Assembly (NCBI GenBank): GCA_012513195.1
Contig: JAAZCR010000003.1
Location: 1-10,910, forward strand
Length of the DNA: 10,910 nucleotides
Reading direction: 5' to 3'
Source of the DNA: Bacilli bacterium
Lineage (GTDB): Bacteria; Bacillota_I; Bacilli_A; Haloplasmatales; Haloplasmataceae
Shown here: positions 2,768 through 10,715 of the stretch, piece by piece
Layout of the letters: every line of letters begins with the position of its first letter
Position numbering within the stretch: the first letter of the stretch is position 1
Program-made: the position numbers and the translations under genes
The notes under the pieces: model-generated
What the model saw: only the letters and a program-made list of their open reading frames with translations
Databases searched by the model: none
Told to the model about the DNA's origin: nothing

Positions 2768-2778
2768 GTTAATAATGT

Positions 2779-2784
2779 GGAGGG
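2779..2784 (+). promoter_or_regulatory. Shine-Dalgarno site fixing the GH2/CBM32 start
   Basis: GGAGGG lies with its GGAGG core ending 5 nt before the ATG at 2789. A GTG at 2777 in the same frame would overlap this site and has no ribosome-binding sequence of its own, so the ATG is chosen. Confidence 0.85.
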
Positions 2785-2788
2785 CATT

Positions 2789-5700
2789 ATGATTATTAAT
2801 TTAGCTGGCGAATGGCTCTATGAATTAGATTATCAAGATCAAGGACTCATAGAAAAATGGTATGAAAAAAAGTTATCTAATACAGGCTTTAAACTTCCTG
2901 GAACAACAGCATCTAACTTTGTTGGCGATAAATTAGATATGGAACTCAATTATGAACGCGAAACCTTAAGACATCTGCGCCAACATTACCGATATGTTGG
3001 TGCTAGTTGGTATCAACGTAAGTTTTTTGTGCCTGATGCATCTAATAAAGTATATCGCTTGTTCTTAGAACGGGTAATGTTTGAATCTCGAGTATATATT
3101 AACGGCAAAGAAGTAGGTAAACGTGATAGTTTATCAACACCTCATATTTATGATATTACACGGTTTGTGATACCTGGACAAGAAAACGAAATCACTATCA
3201 GAGTTGATAATCGTGATGTGCAAAAACTTGGACCATATCCCTCAGCATACACGGATGAAACACAAACCATTTGGAATGGTGTTATCGGGAGAATCGAAGT
3301 TCAAGTATTAAATCGCATTTATGTTGATCAAGTTCAGATTTATCCTAATATCCATGAAAGTAATATTAAAGGCACATTTGTGCTATGTAATCCGTTGGAA
3401 AAGAAAACTACTGTTAGAGTTAATATAAGAGTTCATTATCAAGACAAAGAGTTTAAGACTCTATCATTAATTAAACATCTCGAAAAAGTCGAAGAATTTG
3501 TAGAATTTATTTATGATATCGAAGAACTCCATCTTTGGGATGAGTTCACACCTAATTTATATGAACTAGAAATAGAAGTTGAAGATTATGATGTGCGGAA
3601 GCAACGTTTTGGCATGCGGGAATTCACTACTAAAGGTACCAAGTTTGTCATAAATGGGAAAACAACTTTCCTACGTGGTACTCTTGAATGTTGCATCTTC
3701 CCAATTACAGCTCATCCTAGTATGGAACGCTCAGAATGGGAACGCATCTTTAGTGTTGTAAAAGAATATGGATTAAATCATGTCCGTTTCCATTCTTGGT
3801 GTCCACCAGAAATCGCCTTTACAGTAGCTGATGAAATGGGATTGTATTTGAATGTGGAAGGTCCCGTTTGGATGGACAACTGGAATAAGACGCTCGTCGG
3901 TCAATATCCTGAGCACTATGAATATCTACCAGAAGAATCCTTAAGAATCGTTGATACTTATGGAAATCACCCAAGTTTTGTCATGTATTCTTTAGGAAAT
4001 GAGTTGCGTGGCAGTTTTGAATTGATGAGCGATATTATTCGCCGTTGTAAAAAACGTGACCGTCGTCACCTATACACTTTAACAACAAACTGGGATCGGA
4101 AAGTTGATAAAGAGGACGATTATTTTGCGGCACAAACCGTTGATGGTGTTCCTGTAAGAGGTCAATATAAATTGCATGAAATGGTGACAACGACAAAATT
4201 AACTTTTGATGAAGCAGTAGCCCAAAGAAACATCCCTGTTGTTAGTCACGAAGTAGGTCAATATTCTGTTTATCCCGATATTTCCGAAATTGAGAAATAT
4301 ACAGGTGTTTTACGCCCAATAAACTTTGAAAGTATCAAAAAGAATTTAGAAGAACACAACTTAATTAAATATGCGAAGGATTTCACCTTAGGGTCAGGTA
4401 AGTTAGCTTTATACCTTTATAAAGATGAGTTAGAAGCAGCAATTAGAACAAAAGGTCTAGGAGGAATTCAGCTTCTTGACTTGCATGATTTTCCTGGACA
4501 ATCTACCGCTACAGTTGGTATTTTGAACTGCTTCTGGGAATCTAAAGGAATTACTACTAGTGATTACTTTCGAAAATTCTGTAACGCCATTGTACCATTG
4601 GCGTTGTTAGATAAACGCATTTTTTTAAACAATGAAACTTTAAAAGTAGAAACACAAGTAGCGAATTACTTTCAAGAAGACTTAGTTGATGTCGAAGTAC
4701 TCTATGAAATAAACGACAAAGAAGAAGTAATCTTTAGTAATAGCTTAGGTAAAGCGAACATTAAGCAAGGTGAAGTCGCGACAGTAGGGTCATTTGAAAT
4801 AAATTTAGAAAAAGTAACTGAACCTAAAGAATTAGTTTTAAAGTTAATTATCAAGAATACACCTTACCAAAACGAATGGAATATTTGGGTATATCCTGAT
4901 GAAACGGTTGAACTAAATGATGATGTTATCCATGCTGATAAGTTTGATGATGAGGTTATAAAAGCGTTAAAAGAAGGAAAGAAAGTCTTATTAACACCAA
5001 AAGAACAAGATGTATATCGGACAACTTATGGCAAGTTTTTCCCAGTATTTTGGAGTCCAATTCACTTTATCAGCAAGGACCCTTGTGGCATCATTGCGAA
5101 TAAACATGTTATCTTCGATCGTTTCCCAACTGATCGTTACATCAATTATCAATGGAAAGATATCGTTGAGAAGTCTTATTCCATTAATATTGATGATTTA
5201 CCGCTTGATTTTGAACCAATCGTTCAGGTTATCCCTAACTTCTATAACAATGCGAAGTTAGCTAATCTTTTCGAATGTAAAGTAGGTAAGGGTAAATTAT
5301 TCGTCACTTCAATTGATTTAGAAACTGATATTGATAAACGTATTACAGCGAAAGCTTTAAGAAACAGTATTTATCGCTATTTAAATAGTGATGCGTTTGA
5401 CCCTAGACAGAGTCTAGAACTTGCTAGTTTAGTTAAAGTTTTCACTCCAAAACCACAATATGAACTTGATTTAGTTGATGTTGCCCTATATAAAAAGGCC
5501 TTTGCGTCAAGTGAAATGGAAGGCCATCCAGCAAGTTATGGTAATGATAATAACTTAAATACCGCTTGGGAAGCAAAGGATTTTAGCAATGGACAACATT
5601 GGACTGTTGACTTAGGTCAAGTATATGAAATCGTGGGTACAAAAATTACTTTCAGTGAAAAGGCTAACTATCTTTACGCGATTCAAACTTCAGTGGATGG

Positions 5701-5869
5701 TAATGAATATAAAATTGTAGTTAATCAAACAGGTCAAACAAGTACAGATCAAGAACGTTTTGATGAATTCACTGATCAAGCAAGATTTATCCGCATCGTC
5801 TACAATGGTCTACCTGAAAATGTCAAAGCTAGTCATAAAGAAGTGAAAGTATATATAAAAAAGAAATGA
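2789..5869 (+). CDS. GH2 family glycosidase (beta-galactosidase-like) with C-terminal CBM32-type domain
   Basis: This is a 1026-residue retaining glycosidase of family GH2, likely an exo-acting beta-galactosidase or related enzyme. Domain order: N-terminal jelly-roll sugar-binding domain (about 1-175, starting INLAGEWLYELD), Ig-like domain (about 180-280), TIM barrel (about 285-590), beta-rich linker domains, then an F5/8C (CBM32-type) module from about residue 897 to the end (ASYGNDNNLNTAW, HWTVDLGQVYEI, FIRIVY). The acid/base is E405 in NHPSFVMYSLGNEL; the nucleophile is probably E488 in PVVSHEVGQ, a spacing of 83 residues, normal for GH2. There is no signal peptide, so it should be cytoplasmic, which is unusual for an enzyme with a binding module. 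CBM32 domains often bind galactose, which agrees with the GH59 gene next door. Exact sugar specificity cannot be read from sequence. The gene ends with TGA, showing that UGA is a stop here. Confidence 0.88.
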   Translation: MIINLAGEWLYELDYQDQGLIEKWYEKKLSNTGFKLPGTTASNFVGDKLDMELNYERETLRHLRQHYRYVGASWYQRKFFVPDASNKVYRLFLERVMFESRVYINGKEVGKRDSLSTPHIYDITRFVIPGQENEITIRVDNRDVQKLGPYPSAYTDETQTIWNGVIGRIEVQVLNRIYVDQVQIYPNIHESNIKGTFVLCNPLEKKTTVRVNIRVHYQDKEFKTLSLIKHLEKVEEFVEFIYDIEELHLWDEFTPNLYELEIEVEDYDVRKQRFGMREFTTKGTKFVINGKTTFLRGTLECCIFPITAHPSMERSEWERIFSVVKEYGLNHVRFHSWCPPEIAFTVADEMGLYLNVEGPVWMDNWNKTLVGQYPEHYEYLPEESLRIVDTYGNHPSFVMYSLGNELRGSFELMSDIIRRCKKRDRRHLYTLTTNWDRKVDKEDDYFAAQTVDGVPVRGQYKLHEMVTTTKLTFDEAVAQRNIPVVSHEVGQYSVYPDISEIEKYTGVLRPINFESIKKNLEEHNLIKYAKDFTLGSGKLALYLYKDELEAAIRTKGLGGIQLLDLHDFPGQSTATVGILNCFWESKGITTSDYFRKFCNAIVPLALLDKRIFLNNETLKVETQVANYFQEDLVDVEVLYEINDKEEVIFSNSLGKANIKQGEVATVGSFEINLEKVTEPKELVLKLIIKNTPYQNEWNIWVYPDETVELNDDVIHADKFDDEVIKALKEGKKVLLTPKEQDVYRTTYGKFFPVFWSPIHFISKDPCGIIANKHVIFDRFPTDRYINYQWKDIVEKSYSINIDDLPLDFEPIVQVIPNFYNNAKLANLFECKVGKGKLFVTSIDLETDIDKRITAKALRNSIYRYLNSDAFDPRQSLELASLVKVFTPKPQYELDLVDVALYKKAFASSEMEGHPASYGNDNNLNTAWEAKDFSNGQHWTVDLGQVYEIVGTKITFSEKANYLYAIQTSVDGNEYKIVVNQTGQTSTDQERFDEFTDQARFIRIVYNGLPENVKASHKEVKVYIKKK

Positions 5870-5880
5870 CCCACAAATTA

Positions 5881-5909
5881 AATAATATCCGATTATATCG
5901 GATATTATT
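5881..5909. repeat. 12-bp inverted repeat in the GH2-GH59 spacer
   Basis: AATAATATCCGA (5881-5892) pairs exactly with TCGGATATTATT (5898-5909) across the 5-nt loop TTATA. It starts 11 bp after the GH2 stop. The stem is mostly A-T, and what follows (AATCAATC) is not a T-run, so it is a poor terminator in the + direction. It lies just upstream of the cre-like site and may mark a segment where operon expression is partly interrupted or restarted. Confidence 0.75.
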
Positions 5910-5961: not shown

Positions 5962-8052
5962 ATGAAGAAGCCAATTATACTTAGTGTATTTATCATACTA
6001 CTGTTACTAATAGGTTGTCATAAAAGAGGAGGACAAATAACAACAACTCCTCTTGAAACGACTGTAACTACTCCTAATCAAACTACCACAAAAGATTCTA
6101 CCACCACGAATAAACCAGTGATAACGACAACAACTCAGGGAATAACTCTTCCTGATACGATAATCGAAATTGATGCAAATGATAATGGACCAGAATTTGC
6201 TGGGTATGGATTAGTCGCAACTGGTACAGATGCTCTATTAGTCGATTATGATGACGAAACACGACGACAAATACTTGAGTATCTCTTTAAAGATAACTAC
6301 GGTCCCGAAATTAAATTATTAAAGTTGGAAATCGGTGGCGGTAGTAATAATACCAATACTTCGGTAGCAAGTCATATGCCTACCCGCGATATCGAAAACT
6401 ACTATGCAAGTTATGGATGGAAGATTCTCAAAGAAGTACAAGAAATTAACCCTGATGTTAAGTTGATGGGGTTACATTGGTCATTACCAAGTTGGGTAAA
6501 GACTCCTAGTGATGAAGCATATTACATCTATAAATGGGTTGATGGCATGAAACGTGTTCATGGCATCGATATTGATTATATTGGTGGGCAACGTAATGAA
6601 GAAGAACCAATGAATCGTTACTTTACTATCGAGTTAAGACGATTATTAGATGAAAACGGTTATGGACATGTAAAAATCGTGGGTGGGGAAGCAGTTTATA
6701 GTAAATGGTCTGTCGCTGATTTAATGATGAAATTCCCTGATTATAACGCAGCTATTGATGTTATTGGTGGTCATTATGTTTCACCTCATTATCCAAATCC
6801 TATTTATTTCCAACTAAATAAACCAATATGGGAATCCGAAGCTGGAGGTTGGAATGGTGAGTATAACACTTATGGTAATTTCCGTAAATTCCTTATTAAC
6901 TATGTTAATGGAGGATTAAGTGGGTTACAAACATGGGGATTATCAGCTAGTGTTTATGAAAATAGTTGGTGGCATATGATAGGAATTATTACAGCCAAGA
7001 ATCCTTGGAATGGTAATTGGACGTATTACAACCAAAATTGGGCGATAGCTCATATTAATCAATTTGGTGATTTTGGTTGGTACTTTATGAAAAACGCCAG
7101 TGGAAGAACAGCAATTGAAAAAAGCTATTTTGCAACCATTAAATCTCCAGATAATAGTGATTACTCGATTTTAATTGAAACTTTTGAAGCAAAGACTGAT
7201 GAAGAAATTCTTATTAAAGTAAATGATAATATGCCTAAAGATAAAAAGGTTTATGTTTGGTCTACAGATATTAATGCGACCAACCATAACAGTATATTTG
7301 TTAAAGTTGATGAAATAACTCCGAAAAATGGTGAGTATCGTTATGTATTAAAACCTAATCGTATGTATAGTTTCACAACCACAACAGGTCAAAGCAAAAA
7401 AGGACTAGAAGTTAATATTAAACCAGATACCTTCTGGTCACCTAATTATGTTGAAGATTTTGAATCTTACGACATTGGACATCGTCCTAAATACTTCATT
7501 GATATTGAAGGTGCTTTTGAAGTAGCTCAAGCAGGTGGAGGAAGAGAAGGTAAAGCCTTAAGACAAGTAGCTATTGGTGAACCAATTAGATGGTATGGTG
7601 CCTTTACGGATCCTTATCCATATACATTATTTGGTGAACCATTCTGGACTAATATTAAAGCTAGTGTGGATGTGTTGTTTGAAACTAATGGTTATGTTGA
7701 TTTAGCGATACGTGCAAGCGAAGATGCCATGAAAGAAAAACTTAGCCGTAAAGGGTATTACATTCGTCTTCACAATAGTGGTAAATGGGAAATCCTTAAA
7801 TATACATTGAATCAACAAACCAAGACAAACGTTAAGAAGGTACTTGCTAGTGGTACTATCAATCCTATTCCCCTTAATGAATGGAATACAATATCAATTG
7901 CAGCCAAAGGTGGGAGCATTACAGCTTTCTTAAATGGTGAAGTGCTGACTACAGTTCAAGATTACTCTTATATGTCAGGCAATATCTTCTTAGCGACTAG
8001 TGGATATAAATATTTCCAATTCGATAACTTAATTATTGAACCATTTAACTAG
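5962..8052 (+). CDS. Surface lipoprotein of family GH59 (galactocerebrosidase-like beta-galactosidase)
   Basis: This 696-residue protein should hydrolyse beta-galactosides outside the cell membrane. It opens with a lipoprotein signal (MKKPIILSVFIILLLLIGC, lipid-anchored Cys at 19), then a Thr-rich linker (about 26-60). A TIM barrel follows (about 65-370) with GH59 landmarks: the acid/base Glu in IGGQRNEEE (E213), matching the NER site of human GALC, and the nucleophile Glu in PIWESEAGG (E293), matching GALC's SSED. DVIGGHY (266-272) and GLQTWGLSASVYENSWW (320s-330s) also fit. A beta-sandwich (about 375-480) and a C-terminal lectin/LamG-like domain (about 490-696, with DPYPYTLFGEPFWTN) complete the same layout as GALC. 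Family assignment is strong; whether the substrate is a glycolipid or a galactan is inference. It is followed 15 bp later by the SGNH gene and preceded by a cre-like site. Confidence 0.88.
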   Translation: MKKPIILSVFIILLLLIGCHKRGGQITTTPLETTVTTPNQTTTKDSTTTNKPVITTTTQGITLPDTIIEIDANDNGPEFAGYGLVATGTDALLVDYDDETRRQILEYLFKDNYGPEIKLLKLEIGGGSNNTNTSVASHMPTRDIENYYASYGWKILKEVQEINPDVKLMGLHWSLPSWVKTPSDEAYYIYKWVDGMKRVHGIDIDYIGGQRNEEEPMNRYFTIELRRLLDENGYGHVKIVGGEAVYSKWSVADLMMKFPDYNAAIDVIGGHYVSPHYPNPIYFQLNKPIWESEAGGWNGEYNTYGNFRKFLINYVNGGLSGLQTWGLSASVYENSWWHMIGIITAKNPWNGNWTYYNQNWAIAHINQFGDFGWYFMKNASGRTAIEKSYFATIKSPDNSDYSILIETFEAKTDEEILIKVNDNMPKDKKVYVWSTDINATNHNSIFVKVDEITPKNGEYRYVLKPNRMYSFTTTTGQSKKGLEVNIKPDTFWSPNYVEDFESYDIGHRPKYFIDIEGAFEVAQAGGGREGKALRQVAIGEPIRWYGAFTDPYPYTLFGEPFWTNIKASVDVLFETNGYVDLAIRASEDAMKEKLSRKGYYIRLHNSGKWEILKYTLNQQTKTNVKKVLASGTINPIPLNEWNTISIAAKGGSITAFLNGEVLTTVQDYSYMSGNIFLATSGYKYFQFDNLIIEPFN

Positions 8053-8067
8053 ATAGGATGTATCGTT

Positions 8068-8721
8068 ATGATAGCAGATAAACAAACCTATTTACGTTCC
8101 TTAGTAATTGAATTAACAAAAACATGGCCACAAAACCGCTTCATTAATCTGGTTTTCCATGGTCACAGTGTCCCAGCTGGATATTTCCTCACTCCTTATG
8201 TGAATTCGTATGGTTCTTATCCATATATATTACACAAAAAACTCAAAGAACGTTTCCCCTTTGCGATAATTAACCCAATTGTTACCGCAATAGGTGGAGA
8301 AAATAGTGTCCAAGGGGCAAAACGGTTTGATAGTGATGTATTATGTCATAAACCCGATTTACTTACTATCGACTATGGTTTGAATGATCGTTATGTCGAT
8401 ATCAATGCTTGTGTGTTGGCTTGGCAAGAAATGATCGAAAAAGCACTTGCCAAAAACATCCCGGTAATTCTATTGACTCCTACTCTAGATAATTCTTATT
8501 ACAAACAAGATGCAAACTGGGAGTTATTAAGTAAACATAGAGAGCAAATCAAAAAACTAGCTGATATTTACAATGTAGGTTTAGTCGATAGTTTTCAAGT
8601 TTTTCTAGATTACATAAATAACGGTGGTGCATTAGAAGATTTACTTTCCCAAAGTAACCATCCAAGTGAAAAAGGTCATGCATTAGTTGCGCAAGAACTA
8701 TATCGTTATTTTCCAATCTAA
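8068..8721 (+). CDS. SGNH/GDSL-type hydrolase (probable carbohydrate esterase)
   Basis: This 217-residue protein belongs to the SGNH hydrolases, which cleave acyl esters such as O-acetyl groups on sugars. Block I is FHGHSVPAGYF with the nucleophile S34 (GHS in place of the usual GDS). Block II is AIGGENS (Gly 77/78), block III is DYGLNDR with N106, and block V is SNHPSEKGH with H198. The position three residues before that His, usually Asp, is Gln195, so the catalytic acid is missing from its usual place or supplied elsewhere. There is no signal peptide, so the enzyme is probably cytoplasmic and would strip esters from imported fragments. The start is the ATG after AGGAT (8055-8059, 8-nt spacing), just downstream of the GH59 stop, which indicates co-transcription. 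Substrate unknown. Confidence 0.82.
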   Translation: MIADKQTYLRSLVIELTKTWPQNRFINLVFHGHSVPAGYFLTPYVNSYGSYPYILHKKLKERFPFAIINPIVTAIGGENSVQGAKRFDSDVLCHKPDLLTIDYGLNDRYVDINACVLAWQEMIEKALAKNIPVILLTPTLDNSYYKQDANWELLSKHREQIKKLADIYNVGLVDSFQVFLDYINNGGALEDLLSQSNHPSEKGHALVAQELYRYFPI

Positions 8722-8786
8722 TGTACAAACTTACTGTTGATCATCAAATATTCTCAAGATTACTTACCATTTCAAATTTGACATAT

Positions 8787-8791
8787 AAGGA
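8787..8791 (+). promoter_or_regulatory. Shine-Dalgarno site favouring the 8802 start of the second GH2
   Basis: AAGGA ends 10 nt before the ATG at 8802. The in-frame ATG at 8721, which overlaps the SGNH stop codon as TAATG, has no such site upstream (TATTTTCCAATCTA), so the later start is preferred. Confidence 0.65.
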
Positions 8792-8801
8792 AGTGATTTC
8801 A

Positions 8802-10715
8802 ATGCATCGTTGGAAATATTTATTAGCTGAGTATACACAAGAACCCATGGAAACCCATACCAAGAACATTGATGGTATTAATGTACTTTTTCAATATGAT
8901 AAAGTAGTGCCAAGTTTTGATACTTATAAACTAGATGAGCCAACACGAAAATATCTAAGTCTTAATGGTGAATGGAAGTTTATCTTTGATGTCAATAATC
9001 GAGTTCTTGAAGATAAATATTACACTATCGATTTTGATGATTCACTTTGGCAAAATGTAACAGTACCGCATTGTTATGAAACTTTAGAACGAGAGTATTT
9101 TCAAAGTTTTTCGAAAGATGATTATGGTAAGGGGCCAGGATTTATCGATGGCTATGCATGGTATCGAAATTGGTTTAATCTAGATTCTTCCTGGAAAGAT
9201 AAAGCAATTACGTTTAAATTTCTTGGTGCTTACTACAGTGTTTGGATCTTTATTAATGGAGAATATGTGGCAGTTCATGAAGGTGGACATACTTCATTTT
9301 CTCTTGATATTACTGATTATGTTAATGAAGGAGAAAACCTTATAACTGTTCGAATTCTTCGTGCTAAATGGTTTGATGATTACCTCGCACCAAATCCTCA
9401 ACCAATAACACACAAAACACATATTGTTCATTCACCTGTAGATTTATGGCCTTATGGTGGTATAACGCGTGATGTCTATCTTGAAGGAACTGAAAAAGTA
9501 TATATTAGTAAAATCTTAGTTAATGCTCGTGAAGGTACATTAGAAATCAAAACAATCATTTCTAATGATACTCTAGAAGAACAAAATATAGCAGTAACAA
9601 TTAATCCAGGTGAAAATACTGGGGGAGAGGTTAGTAAACAAGAGATCACACTAAAACCTGGAGCTGTTAGAGTACTTTGTGATCTAATCTCTATCCCAAA
9701 TGCAGAAACCTGGGAACTAGATAACCCTAAATTATATGAAGCACGTGTTACTTTAAGTAATGGTGATAGTCTTAGTGTTAAATACGGCATGCGCACGTTT
9801 AAAGTCGATGATACGCGTTTATTATTAAATGGTAAAGCAGTCTTCCTAAAAGGTATAAATTGGCACGAAGAATCTTATGTAAATGGTCGTGCTATGACAA
9901 AAGAAGAATACGATCGCGAGTTCGCATTAATTCAAGAATGTGGCTGCATCCTTTTACGAAACTGTGTTTACAATCGTCATCCATATGCCTATGAATACTG
10001 TGATGCACATGGATTATTGATGCTTGATGATGTTGATCACTTCTGGATTACATGTGCAATGCAGAAGTTTCAATTAGAGGAATATGGTCTAAGTCGAGCT
10101 ATGGTATTAAAAATGGCTTGGAATAATATGAATCATCCTGCTGTTGTAATGTGGTGTGTCCAAAATGAATGCGAAATGGCTAATCCTGATGTTTTCCGAA
10201 CTTGGGTATATGACCTTGTAAATGCGATAAGAAGCATTGACATTCATAATCGTCCAATAATCCAAGCCCAACAAAGCATCCGTTGGTATGATCCTTCCTT
10301 AGATATTTGTGTCGTTATCGGGGTAAATGAGTACTTAGGCACACATCATGAAACCGATAAAGAGCATGAACTAGCCCTAAGATTAGCGAAACTTCATAAA
10401 CAATATCCTCATAAACCAATTTTAATCACAGAAAATGGCGCTTGGTCGATTAAGGGGGATGAGGAAAGTGAAAACTGGCATGTTGAAAGATTTCTTGCTC
10501 ATTATGAACAAGTATTGCAGGTTAGTGATTTTGTGGTTGGTTATGTGATGTGGGTTTTCAAAGATTATAAAACCCGTCATCCATATGCTCGCAAGAATAA
10601 TGGTGTTTCGATGATGGGGATAGTCACGTTTGATAAGTTAGAAAAGAAGAAAATATTCAATGTTTATAAAGAAGCAAGAGTACCGAAATACCATTTGCAG
10701 AAAGTGCCTAAGTAA
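8802..10715 (+). CDS. GH2 family glycosidase (beta-glucuronidase/beta-galactosidase-like)
   Basis: A 637-residue retaining glycosidase of family GH2, shorter than the first and without a C-terminal binding module. Domains from the 8802 start: jelly-roll (about 45-230, starting YLSLNGEWKFIFD), Ig-like (about 230-335), TIM barrel (about 340 to the end). The acid/base is E456 in NHPAVVMWCVQNECEM, the canonical GH2 signature; the nucleophile is probably E544 in KPILITENGAWS, 88 residues later. Asn follows the nucleophile where Tyr is commonest (EYGA), a possible subfamily mark. The size and lack of an extension resemble beta-glucuronidases, but the substrate cannot be told; galactose-related context favours a beta-galactoside, or a uronic acid side chain. 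No signal peptide, so cytoplasmic. An alternative start at 8721 would add 27 residues that look unlike a GH2 beginning and lack a ribosome site. It ends 27 bp before the next, IS-disrupted gene. Confidence 0.85.
   Translation: MHRWKYLLAEYTQEPMETHTKNIDGINVLFQYDKVVPSFDTYKLDEPTRKYLSLNGEWKFIFDVNNRVLEDKYYTIDFDDSLWQNVTVPHCYETLEREYFQSFSKDDYGKGPGFIDGYAWYRNWFNLDSSWKDKAITFKFLGAYYSVWIFINGEYVAVHEGGHTSFSLDITDYVNEGENLITVRILRAKWFDDYLAPNPQPITHKTHIVHSPVDLWPYGGITRDVYLEGTEKVYISKILVNAREGTLEIKTIISNDTLEEQNIAVTINPGENTGGEVSKQEITLKPGAVRVLCDLISIPNAETWELDNPKLYEARVTLSNGDSLSVKYGMRTFKVDDTRLLLNGKAVFLKGINWHEESYVNGRAMTKEEYDREFALIQECGCILLRNCVYNRHPYAYEYCDAHGLLMLDDVDHFWITCAMQKFQLEEYGLSRAMVLKMAWNNMNHPAVVMWCVQNECEMANPDVFRTWVYDLVNAIRSIDIHNRPIIQAQQSIRWYDPSLDICVVIGVNEYLGTHHETDKEHELALRLAKLHKQYPHKPILITENGAWSIKGDEESENWHVERFLAHYEQVLQVSDFVVGYVMWVFKDYKTRHPYARKNNGVSMMGIVTFDKLEKKKIFNVYKEARVPKYHLQKVPK

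Follow-up and report, generated by a model that had tools for sequence, protein, structure and literature searches.

Most of what is known about family GH59 comes from the lysosomal enzyme affected in Krabbe disease; GALC is its best-known member, and the family belongs to the same clan as GH30. GALC acts on galactosylceramide, a lipid presented by saposin A in the complex whose structure has been described (PMC5764952). Its nucleophile is E258 and its acid/base E182, the hydroxyls of the sugar are contacted by W135, G48, T93, S261, R380, N181 and E258, and W524, supplied by the lectin domain, shapes the pocket (PMC4445328).

Among bacteria, Ccel_1238 is a cellulosomal GH59 protein of Ruminiclostridium cellulolyticum, encoded in the xyl-doc cluster; it has been labelled a putative alpha-galactosidase, and its CBM6 has been examined in binding studies (PMC6556953). 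Elsewhere GH59 is treated as a beta-galactosidase or galactosylceramidase family (PMC6637243, PMC11739564), listed under animal/proteoglycan targets in a Streptomyces paper (PMC11475409) and placed in a table of pectinolytic enzymes from an apple-pomace metagenome (PMC5568718). A literature search, to which subscription journals were mostly closed, found no assayed bacterial GH59. The second system of relevance is BT4151. A review describes it as an exo-beta-1,4-galactosidase active on the galactan of pectin oligosaccharides, which in the periplasm, together with BT4156 and BT4160, cleaves their galactan substituent (PMC8002723).

The window analysed here is a whole contig (C124, 10,910 bases) of a Bacilli MAG, the assembly of which comprises 1.84 Mb in 314 contigs and is 91% complete. 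The family, GH59, is a known one; the enzyme itself is a divergent member of it, and its locus looks like one for plant-glycan use. From mouse GALC it differs by a lipoprotein anchor, a missing R380 loop, a shortened G48 loop and Gly in place of S261. Ccel_1238, by its published description, is a secreted GH59 of a clostridium that adjoins a GH2 in a plant cell-wall cluster, but it carries a dockerin and CBM6 and is not a lipoprotein (PMC6556953).

The GH59 gene and its neighbours

All five genes of the window lie on the + strand. A DUF5107-TPR protein comes first, the GH59 stands third, between a GH2 and an SGNH hydrolase, and a second GH2 closes the series (Table 1).

Table 1. Positions in the window of its genes and of the parts of the GH59 protein (residue numbers refer to the latter)
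Feature	Position	Strand	Evidence
DUF5107-TPR protein, open at contig end	1..2727	+	PF17128 63 bits
GH2, BT4151 type, C-terminal F5/8 domain, no evident signal peptide	2777..5869	+	NF049890, PDB
GH59 lipoprotein gene, 696 aa	5962..8052	+	ATG 5962, TAG 8052; profile and fold matches
Signal peptide, ends in lipobox LIGC (residues 16-19), Cys19	5962..6018	+	sequence reading
Thr-rich linker, residues 21-62, Thr 18/42	6022..6147	+	sequence composition
TIM barrel, residues 79-367	6196..7062	+	PF02057 248 bits
N212-E213, acid/base pair	6595..6600	+	profile alignment; one-residue insertion before pair
E293, nucleophile	6838..6840	+	alignments
Central beta-domain match, residues 414-477	7201..7392	+	PF17387 20 bits, cut-off 28
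C-terminal lectin-like domain, residues 516-693, with W544 (GALC W524)	7507..8040	+	PF21708
SGNH/GDSL hydrolase, 217 aa, no evident signal peptide	8068..8721	+	PF13472 77 bits
Second GH2, beta-galactosidase/beta-glucuronidase-like	8721..10715	+	profile matches

Membership in GH59, claimed in an earlier sequence-only reading of the window, is borne out by predicted fold and by the catalytic-domain profile PF02057, which was matched over its full length (cut-off 27). That reading had also seen the complete three-domain layout of GALC and had named a predicted structure devoid of the C-terminal lectin domain as a sign of error. The lectin-domain profile PF21708 exceeds its cut-off (65.5 bits against 27) and the structural match extends to residue 696; the central PF17387 match lies below its cut-off, and the structural match to GALC spans the same region. 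GH30, suggested at that time as the alternative family, was rejected, both profile and fold matching GH59 better. AcXbh30A, XynC and glucocerebrosidase of GH30 share the barrel and beta-sandwich fold with the window protein, but their structural match stops at about residue 476 and contains no lectin domain. On profile and predicted-fold evidence the window protein is a genuine, though divergent, bacterial counterpart of the Krabbe-disease enzyme. PF02057 was also matched in 10 of the 98 other relatives and by two further proteins of G001, the second genome of the window genus; these were set aside as probable GH30-type because their scores (20 to 61 bits) and lengths (frames of 434 to 527 aa) were insufficient. 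Between the window gene and its sister copy in G001 strong purifying selection is seen (dN/dS 0.045, linker excluded).

The proposed attachment to the membrane through a lipobox Cys and a Thr-rich linker agrees with our analysis, which supports a surface-anchored lipoprotein as read from the N-terminus; we take the lipobox rule to apply to LIGC at Cys19, and the lipobox of the sister copy is LIGC as well. Similar N-terminal starts occur on other open reading frames of the sister contig (a GH2 at 50336 and proteins at 47960 and 55277), so this kind of anchor seems to be usual for the lipoproteins encoded there.

The GH2 at 2777 reaches 802 bits with NF049890 (E 6e-241), below the equivalog cut-off of 1500, and matches PDB 8u01 at 6e-165. 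It resembles the RG-I galactosidase BT4151 and, from these scores, would be of a type related to NF049890 (BT4151 exo-beta-1,4-galactosidase), not an established equivalog. For the second GH2 of the window an assignment as beta-glucuronidase is doubtful: it scores 182 bits with the respective model (cut-off 544), and N-x-K, the uronate motif, was not seen in it by eye. Both acetyl xylan esterases and lipases are among the matches of the SGNH protein. Inspection by eye revealed no evident signal peptide in the GH2 at 2777, the SGNH protein or the GH35 of the sister contig. The DUF5107-TPR protein stands beside glycan genes, and the DUF5107 part of its sister copy matches a solved TPR-domain protein (5cd6). 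The gap upstream of the GH59 gene contains, as read by eye, an inverted repeat (5881-5909) with 12-base arms and a 5-base spacer, followed by no T run; a similar stretch occupies the same place in the sister contig, and it may be a terminator or an operator.

The whole block recurs in G001 (C6:25005-35775) at about 79-80% DNA identity, and contamination of the MAG is for that reason thought an unlikely source of it. Around the block the sister contig encodes UxaC (uronate isomerase), a second BT4151-type GH2, a GH35, an AraC regulator, RDD and Yip1 proteins, ABC transporter components (a solute-binding-domain protein and four permease-like genes, three of which match Pfam families), an NHL-repeat protein, a DUF5696 protein and a GH2 lipoprotein. 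In both genomes two TAA codons interrupt the profile match of the second BT4151-type GH2 (G001:C6:18326-20833 and G000:C66:5-1924), so that the protein may be truncated at, or may lack, its C-terminal part. Genes upstream of the glycan locus in the sister contig (L016:4839-16156) look by eye like arginine/ornithine breakdown genes.

The host had been described as Mollicutes-like. Mollicutes are not known to have peptidoglycan transpeptidases, and many of them read TGA as Trp. A profile search gave three matches to the transpeptidase PF00905 in each of two genomes of the window genus (G000 and G001), and a GH2 gene of the window ends in TGA; a wall-less, code-4 mollicute is therefore an unlikely host. 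Kinship with Mollicutes is possible, given the many genomes of 0.7-1.0 Mb within the host class. The surprise expressed earlier at a surface GH59 in such an organism was overstated, in view of these transpeptidases, of relatives at 385 loci of named genomes and of the secreted clostridial Ccel_1238 (PMC6556953). What stays of interest is an altered sugar pocket and a link with one type of GH2.

Catalytic residues and sugar pocket

Residues were compared in a MAFFT alignment of 89 sequences: the window protein, its sister (P0003), mouse GALC, 78 of the best-80 loci and 8 database proteins. L019 (the sister protein itself), L028 (short frame), P0002 (sharing 99% identity with the window protein) and P0012 (distant) were excluded. 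Both catalytic Glu named in the sequence-only reading, 213 and 293, are in place. At the acid/base MAFFT aligned E214, whereas the profile of the 87 other rows aligned N212-E213 and left R211 as an insertion; the clan rule, Asn-Glu for the acid/base, favours E213. Further residues of the GALC pocket are kept as well, T93 as T131, W135 as W173, N181 as N212, E182 as E213, E258 as E293, W524 as W544 and W291, which we take to be a pocket residue, as W325.

At other contacts the window protein departs from GALC. S261 corresponds to G296, Gly being found in this column in one other row; G48 falls in a two-residue gap of the window pair, the loop being shorter by two residues, and is Ala in five rows. 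R380 is not diagnostic, because the alignment has a gap for its loop not only in the window pair but in every one of the 86 other bacterial or metagenomic rows. The GH59 proteins of L097, L044 and L084 keep Ser-Arg in a pocket loop one residue shorter than that of GALC and carry F5/8 domains, whereas the window GH59 lacks both. Altogether, of the 116 columns in which the 87 other GH59 sequences show at least 95% conservation, the window protein differs at 39, among them GALC S46, G49 and R53 in the shortened loop and G95 and E97 near T93. The sister deviates at 37 of these 39, keeping the common residue at 150 and 286. The AF2 model has pLDDT below 50 in three short stretches (213-216, 297-301 and 333-336), two of which lie beside the catalytic Glu. 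GH59 catalysis is probably intact, judging from alignment and model; the choice of substrate is less sure. Since so many near-invariant columns differ, some of them in the sugar pocket, the specificity may have shifted.

Distribution and related loci

With the GH59 protein as query (1e-10), only 2 of 395 genomes of the class match, both of the window genus, and PF02057 (1e-30) finds the same two among 392 of the phylum. At 1e-40, GH59 is present in 7 of 240 genomes of the G528 phylum (Verrucomicrobiota), 1 of 246 of the G527 phylum (Planctomycetota) and 2 of 345 of the G529 phylum (Bacteroidota). The best 80 of the 385 loci of named genomes that encode relatives are mostly from Actinomycetota; two protein database searches, each with 7993 candidates scored, gave 11 and 9 rows. 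From this patchy spread we infer that horizontal transfer is suggested. The earlier proposal of a GH59 phylogeny with bacterial members was taken up in a tree of 41 rows, where the window pair falls, apart from Actinomycetota, into an 8-row set (100/99) that also holds Verrucomicrobiota, Planctomycetota, Bacteroidota, P0007 and mouse GALC. The branch leading to the pair measures 2.57 changes per column and its nearest grouping, at 90/91, is tentative, in a tree with long branches. Mouse GALC, itself on a long branch, clusters with a verrucomicrobial GH59 (L051) and P0007 (98/92). This is a lead as to where the animal enzyme arose, though long-branch error may be at work.

Gene neighbourhoods were collected for 13 non-actinobacterial lineages with usable flanks (the window genus, L044, L051, L084, L097, L130-L136 and L138); L021 (3.5 kb) and L137 (3.4 kb, the second GH59 of G530) had too little flank. 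Neighbouring open reading frames were picked mechanically and scanned in part, and some are spurious in high-GC loci. Among those scanned, another glycan-degrading gene lies within about 10 kb of GH59 in 10 of the 13 lineages, and none was found in L134, L135 and L138. As in the window, GH59 stands among glycan genes (GH2, GH43, GH35, GH28, GH78 or PL4-type) in loci of Verrucomicrobiota, Planctomycetota and Bacteroidota (L097, L044, L084, L130-L133, L136). The neighbours include several GH2, GH43 (L084, L097, L133), GH35 (sister, L132), GH78 with GH106 (L130) or GH88 (L097), GH30 (L044), SusD with GH29 (L136), GH1 (L051) and a PL4-type rhamnogalacturonan lyase (L133). GH28 and GH115 lie close to GH59 in two verrucomicrobial genomes (L131 and L133), a recurrent pectin-type arrangement. 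The best solved relatives of the L097 GH43 are galactan 1,3-beta-galactosidases; the solved chain nearest to the L084 GH43 is named endo-1,4-beta-xylanase, and for the L044 GH43, which falls short of the Pfam threshold, no solved relative was found at 0.001. L084, and probably L130 too, has sulfatases close to GH59, which suggests other substrates in these loci. These neighbourhoods, which provide a substrate list for bacterial GH59, suggest that it is often a plant-glycan enzyme.

The Actinomycetota neighbourhoods were mostly probed with 14 query proteins besides GH59. Nine loci in all matched, to the L097 GH43 (L083, L088, L038), the L084 GH43 (L052, L085, L093), the L097 GH3 (L034, L065) and GH35 (L090). 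Pfam confirmed GH43 in three scanned loci (L083 and L038, of one MAG, and L052); a weak GH2 match in L088 (56 bits) was not upheld as GH2 by NCBIfam. In Bacteroidota, L084:9884-14940 holds a tandem GH59 pair in a locus with SusD, GH43, GH2, sulfatase and GH116. An alpha/beta hydrolase adjoins GH59 in L135 (L135:3-8420), the only one of the related loci where it is directly beside it, and an Exo_endo_phos protein lies about 6 kb off; both families include lipid enzymes, and this is a possible lipid setting.

BT4151-type GH2 genes, called at 400 bits or more in phmmer, lie within 10 kb of GH59 in three of the best 80 of the 385 loci, L019, L097 (two copies) and L044. In L097, from a Verrucomicrobiaceae MAG, they flank GH59 on both sides; in L044 (6524-12367), from a Planctomycetota MAG, a single open reading frame of 1948 aa encodes one protein made up of a BT4151-type GH2, F5/8 domains and an entire GH59. 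A general partnership was tried and rejected: the two occur together in 3 of 13 lineages (window genus, G527 and G528) and apart in 3 (G649, G674 and G746, with none of 7 matches on the GH59 contig), the GH2 was not found at 1e-40 in 7, and G528 has two further copies far from GH59. The partnership is therefore only a lead. NF049890 stays below its curated cut-off in the window GH2 and in every relative scored.

Possible substrates and roles

We propose that the window protein is probably a surface-anchored, retaining GH59 exo-beta-galactosidase that trims terminal beta-galactose from plant cell-wall glycans outside the Bacilli cell, with RG-I galactan or arabinogalactan side chains as the favoured candidates. 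The computed basis comprises GH59 sequence and predicted fold, the catalytic pair by alignment, the lipobox, gene order and purifying selection. The GH59 lipoprotein would act outside the cell, the ABC importers of the locus would take up the products, and the GH2 and GH35 enzymes without evident signal peptides would complete breakdown inside. The sequence-only reading had asked whether galactose is removed from galactolipids or from galactan. Galactan is favoured because of the glycan-degrading genes near GH59 in 10 of the 13 non-actinobacterial loci; the galactolipid half of the question found little support and looks unlikely. Against galactan stand the loss in the window pair of two sugar contacts (G48 loop, S261), the BT4151-type GH2 accompanying GH59 in just 3 of 13 lineages with NF049890 scores below cut-off throughout, the GH43 of L084 and L044, which do not point to galactan, the sulfatases of L084 and probably L130, and the three loci whose scanned frames hold no glycan gene.

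The altered pocket could mean that GH59 catalysis is kept while the -1 pocket has been remodelled, so as to accept a different terminal sugar of these plant glycans (alpha-L-arabinopyranose or beta-D-fucose, for instance) or a different linkage in them. To this we give a minor yet appreciable chance: the 39 deviant columns (S46, G49, R53, G95 and E97 among them, 37 shared with the sister), G296 at S261, the long branch and the low model confidence beside the catalytic Glu speak for it, but the tryptophans, T93 and both Glu are kept, the neighbouring enzymes match beta-galactosidase families, the R380 loop is missing from all bacterial or metagenomic rows, and Gly at S261 and Ala at G48 recur elsewhere. 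That the enzyme strips galactose from plant MGDG or galactosylceramide at the cell surface, possibly in partnership with the SGNH protein as an acylhydrolase, would fit the substrate of GALC (PMC5764952), the SGNH/GDSL gene directly downstream and the setting of L135; it is improbable, the SGNH protein having no evident signal peptide and matching acetyl xylan esterases too, no saposin A-like partner having turned up among the scanned genes of the window and the sister contig, and glycan genes standing at 10 of 13 loci. A catalytically weak or dead GH59 serving as a surface galactan-binding protein is very improbable. The one-residue insertion directly before the Asn-Glu pair and the low-confidence acid/base loop are in its favour, but both Glu are kept in both species and dN/dS is 0.045.

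The outlier position of the window protein could reveal which pocket residues set specificity in GH59. We further put forward, as a doubtful conjecture, that the lineage forms a GH59 subfamily of its own, in which a remodelled -1 pocket goes with a specificity, for sugar or for linkage, that is new for GH59, and which acts with the BT4151-type GH2 on a pectic side chain, and that GH2 and GH59 form a two-enzyme unit for an as yet unassigned galactan structure. If true, this unit would occur as neighbouring genes in Bacilli and Verrucomicrobiaceae and as one polypeptide in the planctomycete.
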